A stretch of 64,000 nt of DNA, from assembly GCA_018433765.1 (NCBI GenBank), contig JAHDQO010000013.1, forward strand, positions 186,001 to 250,000. The letters run 5' to 3'. A program made the position numbers and the translations under genes. Positions 33,197 through 54,726 of this stretch are shown in pieces; the stretch's first letter is position 1; each line of letters begins with the position of its first letter. The DNA comes from Tissierellales bacterium (lineage in GTDB: Bacteria; Bacillota; Clostridia; Tissierellales; Sedimentibacteraceae). The notes under the pieces are model-generated. The model ran no database searches. It was not told where the DNA came from and saw nothing but the letters and a program-made list of their open reading frames with translations.

Positions 33197-33613
33197 ATGA
33201 AAAAGTTAATAGGTACTCTAATTTTAGTTCTTTTGATTACCACTATGTTAACACCTGTTTTAGCAACCGAAAATGCTATTGATTATACTAAGGAAACTAA
33301 GACAATAGCTGAAATAGATTTAAGCAACGATAGTATAAATTTTGGATTGTTTGATGACTATAATGTATATGCCGATAAATGGTGGATTATGGATGGATAT
33401 GTAGGAGTTGGAGCTGAAGGTTATACAAATATAGTTGAAAAAAAAGATGGAAGCTATAGATACCATTACTCAAATGTAGTAGTTTATGCAGATTCTAAGG
33501 AAGAATTTGCGTACGAATCTGGTAGAGAATGGGGAGAAGGTAAAGTATACGCTTCAACTGGTAATGTAGGACATGGTGCAATGCATCACCATAGAATTTT
33601 TTATGGTTGGTAG
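33197..33613 (+). CDS. Lactococcin-972-family bacteriocin precursor
   Basis: A 138-aa secreted protein. Residues 1-23 are a clear Sec signal peptide (basic KK, hydrophobic core, VLA cleavage site). The mature part ends in a lactococcin-972-like domain: GGY-type aromatic start (WWIMDGYVGVGAEGY), a Tyr/Val-rich strand region, REWGEGKVYAS and the aromatic end HHHRIFYGW. Lactococcin 972 blocks septum formation by binding lipid II. The mature chain, about 115 aa, is longer than the 66-aa prototype and has an extra acidic N-terminal segment. AAAGGAG precedes the ATG. It is followed by two membrane proteins and an ATPase, the typical surroundings for this family. Confidence 0.72.
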   Translation: MKKLIGTLILVLLITTMLTPVLATENAIDYTKETKTIAEIDLSNDSINFGLFDDYNVYADKWWIMDGYVGVGAEGYTNIVEKKDGSYRYHYSNVVVYADSKEEFAYESGREWGEGKVYASTGNVGHGAMHHHRIFYGW

Positions 33614-33673
33614 TACACTGAAAATGTAAATTAAATATCTTTAATGTGTTGCTTTGTAAGAAAGTAAAAAAGT

Positions 33674-33712
33674 ATATGGCATGGTTATTTTAAAAAAATA
33701 ATTGTGCCATAT
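33674..33712 (+). terminator. Hairpin between bacteriocin and exporter genes
   Basis: ATATGGCA pairs with TGCCATAT with an inner TTATTTT/AAAATAA stem. There is no T-tract after it, so it may act as a partial terminator or mRNA stabiliser that makes bacteriocin transcripts more abundant than the downstream genes. Confidence 0.5.
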
Positions 33713-33748
33713 GAACTATAATTTAAAGAATAGTAAGAAAGAGGAAAT

Positions 33749-34777
33749 ATGACAAAAAAATTAGTTTTGGGTTTTTCAACAATTATTTTTTTATTGCAAT
33801 TATTGTTTATATCATATATTAATTATATTGATTTTATTGATCTACAAATAACTATATCAAATTCTTTAATTTCAGATAAATCGGTTTCATTTATTTTTAG
33901 AAAAAACAAAACACCATCATTATATGAATTCTCAGAATTACTTGAACCATATTCTGATATAACTTTATTATCAGAACTACATAATTTCAACAATTTAAGA
34001 GTATGGGGAATTTATGGAGATTGCCATTTAGATAATAATGCAAATTCATTGATAAATGGAGCTTTTTTTATGAAAGAAGATTTTTTAAAGGGAAACTTCA
34101 AAGCTGTGATTGGTGAAAATATATTAAATTCAGATAATTGCTTTTTAGATGAAAATGGAAAAACATATTTTAAATTTAACAATAATAATTATGAAGTAGT
34201 GGGTACTATAGATACAAATATTACTAAAATGCTTGATAATACAGCTTTTCTAAATCTTGATTCATTCAATATTGAATATCTAAGTAAATTTGTTATAGAT
34301 GGCATAGATAGTAATGTTATAAATAATACAGTAAATAGAATAAAACAAAAATACAATATTGATATAATAAAAGAGGATGATAATTTCATCGAAAGATATA
34401 TGTTTGATGATATTGATAAACATACATTAAATGAGTTCATAATTGTTTTTATTAGTATACTTATTATTACACTTTTAATGTTTACTTTACGATATTATAA
34501 GGAAGAAATTATGGTTAAAAGAATTGTAGGTATAAGTTTCAAAAAAATTCTGTTTGATTTGTTTAAAAACATATTTGTTTTGGCTTTGATGAATACCGCT
34601 TTTTTTGTTAGTGGTTATATAATTATTTACTACAATATCTTGCAGAAAATCCATTTAAGCTTCTATTGTGTTCACTTGATTATATTTTCATGTACTATAT
34701 TTTTAATTATGGTCTTGTTTATATATCTATATATGATAATATCAAATAATTTCTTTTATAGAAATGGAGTGAAATGA
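33749..34777 (+). CDS. Bacteriocin-associated FtsX-like membrane protein 1
   Basis: A 342-aa protein with one N-terminal helix (about 5-27), an extracellular domain of about 200 residues, and three C-terminal helices (about 229-250, 272-300, 305-330). This is the MacB/FtsX topology. Lactococcin-972 loci usually carry one large membrane protein (about 650-700 aa, seven or more helices); here two separate proteins of half that size follow each other, this being the first. It is likely the permease half of an ABC system for immunity or export of the bacteriocin. Sequence similarity to known families is weak, so the call relies on topology and context. Confidence 0.6.
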   Translation: MTKKLVLGFSTIIFLLQLLFISYINYIDFIDLQITISNSLISDKSVSFIFRKNKTPSLYEFSELLEPYSDITLLSELHNFNNLRVWGIYGDCHLDNNANSLINGAFFMKEDFLKGNFKAVIGENILNSDNCFLDENGKTYFKFNNNNYEVVGTIDTNITKMLDNTAFLNLDSFNIEYLSKFVIDGIDSNVINNTVNRIKQKYNIDIIKEDDNFIERYMFDDIDKHTLNEFIIVFISILIITLLMFTLRYYKEEIMVKRIVGISFKKILFDLFKNIFVLALMNTAFFVSGYIIIYYNILQKIHLSFYCVHLIIFSCTIFLIMVLFIYLYMIISNNFFYRNGVK

Positions 34778-34781
34778 AAAT

Positions 34782-36068
34782 ATGAAATATAAATTCAGTA
34801 AATATATAAATTTATTAGTATGTTTTTGTTTATTGACTGTTGGCATGACAACTTTTATGATTTCAAATAAAAACTATCTTAAAGCAAAACACAAAATAAT
34901 AGATTTTGATAATAAAAATATTGAATCATTGTATTTAAGAGTAACCGATGTTTATGGGCGAGATAATCAAAAAACATTATTTCAATTTTTTTCAGAAGAA
35001 GATTCACTAGAACGAATGAAAAAATTTTGCGGTATTCTAAACAAAGAATTTAACTATTTAGAGTTTGATACACAGTCTTTGCTTGTATTAGATGATTTTA
35101 ATTATAAAGATGAATTTAGAATTGATTATGGAAAAGAATTTTTTGGAGAAAACGATGAAATTGGTATATCTTTAAAATCTGTGCAAATGGGAGAAAACAC
35201 TTATGATATATTTAATCTTGAAAGTCAATTAATTGATGGAAGAGGATTTGAAAATAATGACTTTATATTTGAAAATAATAGAACAGTTTCAGCTATATTA
35301 GGTCATGAATATTCAGAGTTAATTAATATAGGTGATACAGTTAACTTTGAATATTTATCAAAAAATATAACTGTAACAGTTATAGGATTTTTTGAAAAAA
35401 ACACCTCAGTGACATTAAATAACAATATTTATTTTTTAGATGAATTCATTATAATTCCTTCTCTAGACTTAAATTATGATATATTAAATGAAGATGATGA
35501 AAGATTTCAAAAAATACTGTATTCATTAAAAAATTGGGGTTATATAAAAATAAACAATGGTGAAGATTTTTGCGATTATAGAAAAAGGATTGATGATATA
35601 AGTAAGGAGTTAGACTTAAAATATGTTGTAAACGAAGGTTTTGTTTATCCATATATTAGAAATATTTCAAATACAATTAACTCAAATAAAGGAATATTTT
35701 TAATAGCTTCTATAGTTTTATTTCTAATATTATCAGCGATTATTGCTTATATATATATATGGAATTACAATAAAAACAAAAAAATATATTCAATCCATTT
35801 AATTTGTGGGTGTAGTTTACTAAGATTAAAATTAAGAATATTTTTTCAAATTTTCATACAATTCATGTTATCACTAAGTATTGCTTCTTTAGTTAATAGG
35901 TTAATATTAGGGTATGATAACATTTATGTATCTGAACGTATTTTACTTAGACAAGCAGTTAGGCAAACTTCGATATTATCAATTATTATAATGATTGTAA
36001 TATGCTTAATTTTGAATATTTATATTAATAAAAGTAATATTTATTCTTCTATACGAAAAGAAAATTAA
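34782..36068 (+). CDS. Bacteriocin-associated FtsX-like membrane protein 2
   Basis: A 428-aa protein of the same plan: N-terminal helix (8-28), extracellular region of about 270 residues including a GRGFENNDFIFENNRTVSAI segment with the G(R)xF-N-D pattern of MacB periplasmic domains, and three C-terminal helices (about 303-326, 350-375, 395-418). It starts 4 nt after the first permease and ends 18 nt before the ATPase, so the three genes should be one assembly. The two permeases probably form a heterodimer as LolC/LolE do. Whether it confers immunity or exports is not shown by sequence. Confidence 0.6.
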   Translation: MKYKFSKYINLLVCFCLLTVGMTTFMISNKNYLKAKHKIIDFDNKNIESLYLRVTDVYGRDNQKTLFQFFSEEDSLERMKKFCGILNKEFNYLEFDTQSLLVLDDFNYKDEFRIDYGKEFFGENDEIGISLKSVQMGENTYDIFNLESQLIDGRGFENNDFIFENNRTVSAILGHEYSELINIGDTVNFEYLSKNITVTVIGFFEKNTSVTLNNNIYFLDEFIIIPSLDLNYDILNEDDERFQKILYSLKNWGYIKINNGEDFCDYRKRIDDISKELDLKYVVNEGFVYPYIRNISNTINSNKGIFLIASIVLFLILSAIIAYIYIWNYNKNKKIYSIHLICGCSLLRLKLRIFFQIFIQFMLSLSIASLVNRLILGYDNIYVSERILLRQAVRQTSILSIIIMIVICLILNIYINKSNIYSSIRKEN

Positions 36069-36086
36069 TTTGAAAGGAAAATATAT

Positions 36087-36746
36087 ATGATTAAACTTAA
36101 TAATATCTGTAAAAATTTTAGATATAAAAATACAGAAATAAAGGCTCTTAATAATATAAATATACAGATAGATAAAAATGAAATGGTTGCAATCATGGGT
36201 CCAAGTGGCTCAGGTAAATCAACATTACTGAATATAATAGGTGGAATACTTAAACAAACTAGTGGAGAATATTTATTCAATAATAAAGTTGTGATAGGTA
36301 ACGAAACTTATATGGCTAAATTCAGAAGTGACAACATTGGATTTATTCTCCAACATTTTGCATTAATTAACAACAGAAATATTTTATATAATATAGGGTT
36401 GCCACTGAAATACAAAAATATAGAAAAGAGCAAAATAAAAGAAAAAGTTATTTCGATTGCTGATTCACTTGGTATTCTAAACAAGCTTGAAATGTATCCT
36501 CATATGTTGTCTGGTGGAGAATGTCAGCGTGTAGCTATTGCTCGAGCAGTTGTTTCAAGTCCAAATATTATCTTAGCTGATGAACCAACCAACTCTCTAG
36601 GTGACTATAACAAATGTGAAGTATTAGATATACTTAAAAGATTAAACAAAGAAGGTATAACAATCATAATAGCTACTCATGATGAAAATGTAGCTAGAAT
36701 ATGTTATAAAAAAATAAACATCAATGACGGAAAAGTTTCTAACTAA
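36087..36746 (+). CDS. Bacteriocin ABC transporter ATPase (MacB/LolD type)
   Basis: A 219-aa ATPase of the MacB/LolD/FtsE group. Walker A is GPSGSGKST, signature LSGGECQRVAIARA (Glu where Gln is usual), Walker B IILADEPT and switch His in IATHDENVA. The D-loop, normally S/A-L-D, reads NSLGD, moving the Asp by one residue. It follows the two FtsX-like proteins and completes a three-part ABC system for the lactococcin-972-like peptide. Confidence 0.88.
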   Translation: MIKLNNICKNFRYKNTEIKALNNINIQIDKNEMVAIMGPSGSGKSTLLNIIGGILKQTSGEYLFNNKVVIGNETYMAKFRSDNIGFILQHFALINNRNILYNIGLPLKYKNIEKSKIKEKVISIADSLGILNKLEMYPHMLSGGECQRVAIARAVVSSPNIILADEPTNSLGDYNKCEVLDILKRLNKEGITIIIATHDENVARICYKKININDGKVSN

Positions 36747-38843: not shown

Positions 38844-39554
38844 ATGATTGTAAATTCAACTGAATTCAAAACAAATTTAGGCAAATATTTAGATTTACTA
38901 AAAAAGGAAGACATATATATATTAAGAAATGGAAAACCTGCTGCAATGGTAACTAAATGCAATTATCTAACTGATGCTGACTTATTAAAAGAGAATGCAG
39001 GCATATATGATTATAAGCCAATTTATATATCTTATGAAGATTTTATTGAACGTTATGAAAAAACAGATGAGAGACTAGAGTATATAGATGGAAAAATATT
39101 TGCCATGAGTTCGCCAAGCCATGAACATCAAAGAATATCTATGATTTTAAGCAGTATACTTTTTTCTTTCTTTAGAGAAAATAAGTGCCAAGTTTTTGCA
39201 GCTCCTTATGATGTGCATTTTGAAAATACAGAAATCAAAGCTTGTGTACAGCCAGATTTATTAGTTATATGTGATAATGAAAATATAATAAACGGCAAAT
39301 ATTATGGTACACCAACTTTAGTTATTGAAATATTATCTCAAGCATCAAGAGCAAAAGATTCTATAAAAAAACTAAATCTTTATTGGGAGAATGGAGTATC
39401 TGAATACATTATAGTTGATCCAATAAAGAAAAATATAATGTACTGGAATTTTGAGAATGGTGAAATTATTGAACAAGGTAGTACGAATAAAAGAGAAACC
39501 TATAATTCAGTAATGTTTAAAGGGTTGAACTTTAAAGTTGATGAGCTATTTTAA
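38844..39554 (+). CDS. Phd antitoxin domain fused to Uma2 nuclease domain
   Basis: A 236-aa protein of two parts. Residues 1-40 (MIVNSTEFKTNLGKYLDLLK, then ILRNGKPAAMVTK) are a Phd/YefM antitoxin DNA-binding domain. Residues 60-236 are a Uma2/DUF820 restriction-like domain: RLEYIDGKIFAMSSPSHEHQ, VQPDLLVICD, and TLVIEILSQAS carry the PD-(D/E)xK pattern, with YWENGVSEYIIVDP near the end. Phd domains normally neutralise a separate toxin; here it is tethered to a putative nuclease. The DNA is continuous, with no frameshift or stop. GGAGAAATG spacing supports the start. It is a single-gene unit closed by a hairpin. Activity and role are unknown. Confidence 0.8.
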   Translation: MIVNSTEFKTNLGKYLDLLKKEDIYILRNGKPAAMVTKCNYLTDADLLKENAGIYDYKPIYISYEDFIERYEKTDERLEYIDGKIFAMSSPSHEHQRISMILSSILFSFFRENKCQVFAAPYDVHFENTEIKACVQPDLLVICDNENIINGKYYGTPTLVIEILSQASRAKDSIKKLNLYWENGVSEYIIVDPIKKNIMYWNFENGEIIEQGSTNKRETYNSVMFKGLNFKVDELF

Positions 39555-54246: not shown

Positions 54247-54726
54247 ATGATGGAATATAAAAAATATTTGAAGTTTGGCATATTAATACTTTTTATAATG
54301 TATATAATGACTGTATTATATATAGTTTTTTTAAAGCATAGATTTGTATTTGGAAGTTTAAATTATGATATACCATTTGAATTTTATTGGAAGCATAGTG
54401 TGAATTTAACACCTTTTAAAACAATAAAGGATTATATGGTATATGAAAATAATTTAAGCAATAATATTAAATATATAAATATTTTAGGAAACATATTTTT
54501 ATTTGTCCCTTTTGGGATAATACTTCCTACTTTAATAGATGGAAGATTTAAGTTTATTAGAACTTTATTTTATAGTTTTGTGTTTAGCTTAACTATAGAA
54601 ATGCTACAAATGATTTTTAGAATAGGTAGTTTTGATGTTGATGACATAATTTTGAATGTCTTTGGAGGTTTTGCTGGATATTTTATGTACATAATAATTA
54701 TTAGAATAAGAAGACTTCTCAATTAG
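54247..54726 (+). CDS. VanZ family membrane protein
   Basis: A 159-aa protein with four to five hydrophobic helices. The order NLTPFKTIKDY, NILGNIFLFVPFGIILP and FSLTIEMLQMIFRIGSFDVD, then DIILNVFGGFAGY is the VanZ signature. VanZ raises teicoplanin resistance in enterococci, but most relatives have no defined role. It precedes the LytM lipoprotein by 12 nt, so the pair may act on the cell envelope. Confidence 0.9.
   Translation: MMEYKKYLKFGILILFIMYIMTVLYIVFLKHRFVFGSLNYDIPFEFYWKHSVNLTPFKTIKDYMVYENNLSNNIKYINILGNIFLFVPFGIILPTLIDGRFKFIRTLFYSFVFSLTIEMLQMIFRIGSFDVDDIILNVFGGFAGYFMYIIIIRIRRLLN

Follow-up and report, generated by a model that had tools for sequence, protein, structure and literature searches.

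A putative Sec-secreted bacteriocin encoded with two MacB-like half-permeases and an ATPase in a Tissierellales bacterium

One of the closest described counterparts of the four-gene cassette analyzed here, which lies in a 64,000-nucleotide stretch of a Tissierellales bacterium contig (JAHDQO010000013.1, positions 186,001 to 250,000; hereafter the window), is the lactococcin 972 (Lcn972) system of the Lactococcus lactis plasmid pBL1. Both systems place the gene for a small Sec-type precursor with an aromatic C-terminus before membrane protein and ATPase genes, both are found on plasmids (as four relatives of the window cassette are), and in both the transporter is presumed to confer immunity. 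They differ in that the Lcn972 precursor, which folds as a beta-sandwich, is unrelated by sequence to the window precursor as far as tested, in that one 648-amino-acid protein stands where the window has two half-permeases, and in the score of the ATPase on TIGR03608 (253 versus 202 bits). The pneumococcal streptococcin B system (scbABC), like some relatives of the window cassette, retains transporter genes without the bacteriocin gene, with scbBC lacking scbA in 157 of 571 genomes, but its precursor is Lcn972-like in the description given in passages of that study, which sets it apart (PMC11796350). The same passages state that no lactococcin 972 locus had, as of 2024, a membrane protein or ATPase whose role was verified (PMC11796350). 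Among transporters, LolCDE, MacB, and YknXYZ resemble the window cluster in having half-permeases with a MacB-like outer domain, a separate ATPase, and a LolC-LolE-LolD layout; unlike them, the window cluster has no adaptor gene, and a secreted-peptide gene leads the operon.

The window cassette consists of four open reading frames (ORFs) on the forward strand at 33197-36746, encoding a precursor, two half-permeases (perm1 and perm2), and an ATPase, with spacings of 135, 4, and 18 nucleotides. The products of this operon are probably an antibacterial peptide, secreted by Sec and belonging to an unnamed family, and a self-protection ATP-binding cassette (ABC) complex of its own. Bacteriocin-like genetics, namely patchy occurrence, plasmid carriage, and decayed precursors, support this reading, in which killing, target, and immunity are predictions from sequence. 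The gene order and span proposed in an initial annotation of this DNA hold, as does its description of a Sec signal and an aromatic GW end on the precursor. Its further proposal of two half-permeases with an ATPase in a LolCDE-like layout agrees with the ORFs, the hydropathy of homologues, and a weak resemblance to MacB.

The precursor opens with MKK, followed by hydrophobic residues and by VLA at positions 21-23; its mature part bears RYHYSNVVVYADS, SGREWGEGKVYASTG, and a terminal RIFYGW, so that the protein ends in FYGW. With the signal cut placed by eye after residue 24, and Lcn972 of pBL1 read in the same manner, the mature part measures 114 amino acids versus 66 for Lcn972. Mature lengths across the precursor family range from 75 to 117 amino acids, and the annotated near-doubling over the prototype is therefore true of the window precursor but not of its family. 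Intact members share an invariant histidine, mostly within HY[ST], followed mostly by SGRxW/Y and then by a final YG.

A Pfam search with the window precursor gave no match at E 10, and NCBIfam returned only weak matches, to NF053514 (17.7 bits; cut-off 40) and NF041742 (12.7 bits; cut-off 35). NF053514 describes BLB8/JUQZ-1, which passages of one report present as a secreted antibacterial protein with a signal peptide (PMC11747845). The precursor is likewise predicted to be secreted with a signal peptide, but its match spans residues 1-86, signal included, and membership was rejected on the missed cut-off. In a leave-out test, a family model built without a given member (or without its subgroup) was run over 1631 small ORFs. 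This recovered 12 of 14 members at E < 0.05, the window precursor among them (E 0.0014); the precursors of Sedimentibacter saalensis (E 0.18) and G622 (E 0.66) were not recovered. In hhalign, the window trio scored 29.4 against the remaining 11 split-type precursors, a value reached by none of 100 column shuffles. A search with the precursor model alone matched five of 297 Bacillota genomes, each time next to split permeases; all five are rows of the model, so the search demonstrates specificity more than reach. On these comparisons, the precursor is assigned to a family without a name in the databases searched, spread over Clostridia, Tissierellia, and Bacilli.

The initial annotation took the precursor for a lactococcin 972, a placement that did not survive profile searches. 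The window precursor gave no match to PF09683 or TIGR01653 at E 10 in Pfam and NCBIfam, none of 14 aligned family members matched either model at E 1, and a PF09683 search of the window's own genome found nothing. The pBL1 controls scored 108.6 bits on TIGR01653 and 55.5 bits on PF09683 for Lcn972, 706.3 bits on TIGR01654 for the membrane protein, and 253.4 bits on TIGR03608 for the ATPase. Alignment by hhalign of the 14 split-type mature precursors with six Lcn972-type ones, comprising Lcn972 itself and five proteins encoded ahead of fused permeases, scored 8.97, which 63 of 100 column shuffles reached. The power of this test is limited, because three of the five proteins before fused permeases match neither TIGR01653 nor PF09683 and Lcn972 aligned with the five scores only 16.3 (reached by 0 of 100 shuffles). 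The other two give weak TIGR01653 matches of 26.7 and 22.2 bits, below the cut-off of 32.1. For one of them, the PF09683 score exceeds the cut-off when a genome is searched (24.3 bits) and narrowly misses it in hmmscan (21.4). Across 299 Bacillota genomes, PF09683 matched five, two of them over cut-off. By sequence, and within the limited power of the test, the window precursor is not a lactococcin 972; the two may still share a fold. The likeness seen by eye, in the final aromatic residues and a GGW start in some relatives, was set aside after the same profile test.

Transmembrane (TM) segments were counted from the hydropathy of close homologues of perm1 and perm2, which have one N-terminal and three C-terminal segments with a large outer domain between them. 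No family in Pfam or NCBIfam reaches its cut-off with either protein, and Pfam MacB_PCD is unmatched. Profile comparison indicates a weak resemblance to MacB (E 3e-4 for perm2 and 1e-4 for perm1, the latter also resembling YknZ at E 6e-4), and the resemblance to FtsX is weaker (E 0.16 and 0.26). With four TM segments, an outer domain between TM1 and TM2, and this profile similarity, perm1 and perm2 class by sequence with the type VII ABC permeases (MacB/LolCDE/FtsEX). A BceAB-type permease, which needs ten TM segments (PMC5985334), was rejected on the homologues' four per protein.

That the cassette is a true lactococcin 972 subtype, with its large membrane protein split into two genes, appears unlikely. 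The clearest tie between the split and fused kinds is a run of genes on one strand in genome G204 (L077:3488-9972), where a precursor, a split pair, and an ATPase are joined by a fused TIGR01654 protein (197.6 bits, over cut-off) and a second ATPase, which matches TIGR03608 (263.7 bits, also over cut-off). About 1.5 kb upstream is a further split set, which lacks a precursor (L120:6088-9035). Consistent with a split, hhalign against 13 fused proteins pairs perm1 with their N half (E 2e-11), perm2 being paired with the C half (E 4e-7); cross-matches to the wrong half are confined to 96-110 columns at the C-terminal end, in the TM part. The low power of the precursor test also leaves room for this subtype, and the best model for the window ATPase is TIGR03608. 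Against it stand the absence of a sequence link between the precursors and lactococcin 972 and a control with other permeases. The fused C-half model at E 1 gives split perm2 proteins at most 4.5 bits and other MacB-like permeases up to 13.1, and the fused N-half model gives split perm1 proteins up to 32.3 bits and another permease 30.2. The perm1 model in turn scores a permease of L106 (41.0 bits) and the permease pair in L103 (51.8 bits) above the fused proteins (maximum 34.6). In this control, whose comparison permeases were taken as a group without a one-by-one check, other MacB-like permeases thus come at least as near to the corresponding fused half as perm2 does, and about as near as perm1 does. 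Nor does the seven-TM family model TIGR01654 (bact_immun_7tm), which matched 13 of 299 Bacillota genomes (four over cut-off), match perm1, perm2, or anything in the window's own genome. Fission of a fused Lcn972-type protein, though good in hhalign, failed this control and is not supported; split and fused proteins both look like type VII ABC permeases. The annotated replacement of a fused membrane protein by a split pair is likewise not confirmed.

The ATPases separate the two kinds no further. The window ATPase scores 202.1 bits on TIGR03608 (cut-off 254.85), with DarD (199.9) and FtsE (193.7) nearly tied, and the pBL1 ATPase also stays below that cut-off. In the ATPase tree, fused-type proteins form one clade (support 98/91) and split-type proteins do not, which speaks against a shared subtype; neither a single split-type clade (p 0.17) nor a joint split and fused clade (p 0.124) is rejected. 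The outgroup comprised 11 sequences, from nine loci with short permease-profile matches plus L015 and L053, and its member L100 falls among the split-type ATPases. By its sequences, the tree decides nothing at depth.

Two related observations concern other loci. The adjacent permeases of 401 and 362 amino acids at L103:1201-3500 score 51.8 bits each, the first on the perm2 model and the second on the perm1 model, and may form a more distant split-type set. In G158, another type of small secreted precursor, which by eye resembles neither Lcn972 nor the window family, stands before fused-type proteins (L086:5902-6294 and L032:3091-3489).

The distribution of the cassette was followed by permease- and precursor-profile searches at class, phylum, and plasmid level, and 32 places with split-type permeases were inspected. 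The synteny recurs: a precursor stands with two half-permeases and an ATPase, and it is intact at 15 of the 32 places (window, G001, S. saalensis, G065, G664, G622, G204, G158, G356, G823, G357, Terrisporobacter, Sarcina p6, Paenibacillus, and Priestia) and decayed beside transporter genes at four (G043, G546, G243, and Sarcina p1). Another genome of the same family carries all four genes (precursor 65% and perm2 76% identical). G001 has both a full cassette and a second perm1-perm2-ATPase set without a precursor. Occurrence is patchy, with intact window-type precursors in three of 150 related genomes, own genome included. A search of these 150 with the window precursor matched eight, four of them genuinely (own, G001 at 66% identity, S. 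saalensis or G021 at 59%, and the remnant in G043); the other four, at 16.7-18.4 bits inside ORFs of 371-880 amino acids, were dropped as chance. The search missed the G065 precursor, although G065 is among the same 150 genomes.

Permease profiles matched 12 of 391 genomes of the class and 44 of 398 of the phylum. All of the former but G610 were inspected, G576 being judged generic; of the latter, 12 were inspected (own included), and 32 short matches were taken as generic without individual check. Another search of relatives pointed to 12 genomes, eight of which were inspected (own included) and four left uninspected (G053, G085, G090, and G096), with G112, G116, and a second match in G043 judged generic or chance. 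A contig scan that matched S. saalensis also returned an Acetatifactor protein of 965 amino acids, which is a different protein and was set aside.

Four of the 15 intact loci are plasmid-borne, on plasmids as small as 11.3 kb in one case and 5.6 kb in another, and searches with four different perm2 proteins returned the same six plasmids each time. All four genes lie on the plasmids of Paenibacillus polymyxa and of Priestia megaterium, Priestia perm1 crossing the record start and appearing as two pieces; a second P. polymyxa plasmid (perm2 99.3% identical) was outside the inspected set. Neither species is a strict anaerobe. The cassette is therefore not confined to strict anaerobes, contrary to the distinct anaerobic subtype first suggested. 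No relative was found among viral contigs and phages, nor among plasmids when the window precursor sequence was the query.

In the proposed mechanism, the precursor would leave through Sec and be cleaved near residue 24, and the putative peptide would find its target outside, either on the external side of the membrane or within the cell wall. Lipid II would perhaps be this target, as an analogy with Lcn972 suggests. The two permeases may form a LolC/LolE-like pair on two ATPase copies, giving a type VII ABC complex that would remove the peptide from the membrane or the target of the producing cell, with the perm2 outer domain as the likely peptide-binding part. A Sec-type start combined with a type VII ABC complex suggests work outside the membrane, and hence producer protection rather than export (PMC5985334). 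Two further findings point the same way: the transporter genes kept at four places beside a decayed precursor, and the pairing, in G125 and on a Virgibacillus plasmid, of a secreted peptide with a lipoprotein that consists of the perm2 outer domain alone.

An alternative without any bacteriocin, in which a secreted signal or envelope protein is paired with a sensor or chaperone ABC complex of LolCDE/FtsEX type, is improbable: type VII ABC complexes do have further roles, in sensing, lipoprotein trafficking, and division, according to parts of one paper (PMC5985334), and the precursors have no known activity and a mature part that exceeds 110 amino acids in some members, but patchy occurrence, plasmid carriage, precursor decay, and the TIGR01654/TIGR03608 pair beside the G204 cassette all argue against it. 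Export or maturation of the peptide by the complex, the least probable alternative, would fit the adjacent, codirectional genes and the TIGR03608 family name (putative bacteriocin export), but the Sec-type start, the description in parts of the same source that MacB works outside its own membrane and moves no substrate across it (PMC5985334), the retention of transporter genes where the precursor has decayed, and an intact S. saalensis precursor without perm2 all speak against it.

The antibacterial peptide with a protective ABC complex remains the preferred reading, and it gains a possible extension from proteins that resemble the perm2 outer domain alone. Genomes G057, G125, and G627 encode proteins of 297-354 amino acids with a lipobox-like start (read by eye) and no TM segment after the first, which align with about positions 8-296, 81-288, and 19-288 of perm2, respectively; the G627 protein passes Pfam MacB_PCD (29.2 bits; cut-off 27). 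The G125 gene overlaps a secreted-peptide gene, and on a Virgibacillus plasmid the lipoprotein gene follows one by 5 nucleotides. These two peptides end in RIFYNW and RIFYAW and are 70% identical, and their lipoproteins are 53% identical. Among the ORFs listed for G057 and G627, no RIFY(N/A)W-type peptide was seen next to the lipoprotein. Immunity by a lipoprotein plus an ABC complex is the arrangement of NisI-type lipoproteins and NisFEG-type ABC complexes. The G125 and Virgibacillus form would parallel such lipoprotein immunity, but the peptide here is no lantibiotic and the lipoprotein shares homology with the outer domain of the permease itself.

We tentatively consider, at somewhat less than even confidence, that the outer domain of perm2 works as a portable immunity module that binds bacteriocins of an undescribed, Sec-secreted family. 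It would occur in three forms: within a heteromeric type VII ABC complex (window and most loci), as a permease with no ABC partner in sight (Terrisporobacter plasmid), and, beside its peptide, as a free-standing lipoprotein (G125 and Virgibacillus). In G204, one peptide gene would be served by both a perm2 module and a fused Lcn972-type protein.

Several observations weigh against these proposals. The precursor was not found at 13 of the 32 places (the family model was run on 11 of them, G570 and G797 excepted). Only a 99-amino-acid fragment of perm1 accompanies the intact S. saalensis precursor, and perm2 was not found in the genome, an awkward state for a toxin needing this immunity. The 5.6-kb Terrisporobacter plasmid carries a precursor with a lone perm2 (L136:3102-4776), and neither perm1 nor the ATPase appears in its annotation or among ORFs of at least 150 amino acids. 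The G622 precursor has a weak, unexplained match to TraG_N (22.5 bits; cut-off 36.1). Structure prediction gave unusable models, with a mean predicted local distance difference test score (pLDDT) of 35.4 for the precursor with one relative (AF2) and 39.0 for perm2 alone. Finally, the G125 and Virgibacillus peptides score 6.8 bits on the family model (E 1 among 1632 ORFs) and 16.1 in hhalign against the family, which two of 100 shuffles reached; their relation to the window family is suggestive but doubtful at the level of sequence.

Around the cassette, a PdxA gene lies upstream across a gap of 802 nucleotides, and an O-antigen-ligase-family gene lies downstream. Among four relatives, the ligase gene was found in all four and pdxA in one; in S. 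saalensis, these genes are on contigs different from the precursor's, and a 721-amino-acid TPR protein follows the perm1 fragment (L042:7001-10057). G+C content is 21.5% in perm1 and 22.0% in perm2, against a mean of 30.5% (standard deviation 3.2) over 31 chosen window genes. This is compatible with a foreign origin, a reading tempered by the adjoining ligase gene, which is also G+C-poor (24.4%). The terminator-like hairpin over the last precursor codons (Table 1) could dampen expression of the transporter genes. An Rfam scan found nothing reaching the gathering score, and a promoter scan found no more sites than in shuffles.

VanZ-family genes lie near three fused-type bacteriocin loci of one genus (L079:5794-6294, L081:5617-6156, and L082:9844-10332) and on the Terrisporobacter plasmid (L136:4855-5412); the window's own VanZ gene, at 54247-54726, is about 18 kb away. 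Judged without a base rate, these neighbors hint at a cell-wall target. Elsewhere in the window, 38844-39554 encodes a Phd/YefM antitoxin N-terminus and an Uma2 nuclease-like domain in a single chain.

Table 1. Coordinates of the cassette genes, the hairpin, and the loci of perm2-like lipoproteins (unprefixed positions refer to the window).
Feature	Position	Strand	Size	Remarks
Precursor ORF	33197..33613	+	138 aa	Residues 1 to about 23 form the Sec-type N-terminus; about 114 aa remain as the mature part
perm1, first half-permease	33749..34777	+	342 aa	1+3 TM (homologues); MacB-like outer domain
perm2, second half-permease	34782..36068	+	428 aa	1+3 TM (homologues); MacB-like outer domain about residues 33-290
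ABC ATPase	36087..36746	+	219 aa	Best NCBIfam model TIGR03608
Terminator-like hairpin over last precursor codons	33573..33592	+		1 found versus shuffle mean 0.3 (sd 0.5)
perm2-outer-domain lipoprotein locus	L061:6994-8498			Behind secreted peptide
perm2-outer-domain lipoprotein locus	L152:3438-4954			Virgibacillus plasmid; behind secreted peptide
perm2-outer-domain lipoprotein locus	L059:7554-8501			
perm2-outer-domain lipoprotein locus	L069:1748-2641			

Among titles and abstract beginnings of open-licence PMC articles, a scope that lies outside subscription journals and preprints, no description of the precursor family or of the lipoprotein form was found. If the proposed reading is true, the cassette would represent an unannotated bacteriocin family extending over Clostridia, Tissierellia, and Bacilli. 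The unverified transporter roles of lactococcin 972 loci would become testable through this cassette. Because the lipoprotein form would separate binding from ATP-driven work, the immunity step itself could be tested with a soluble domain and its peptide.

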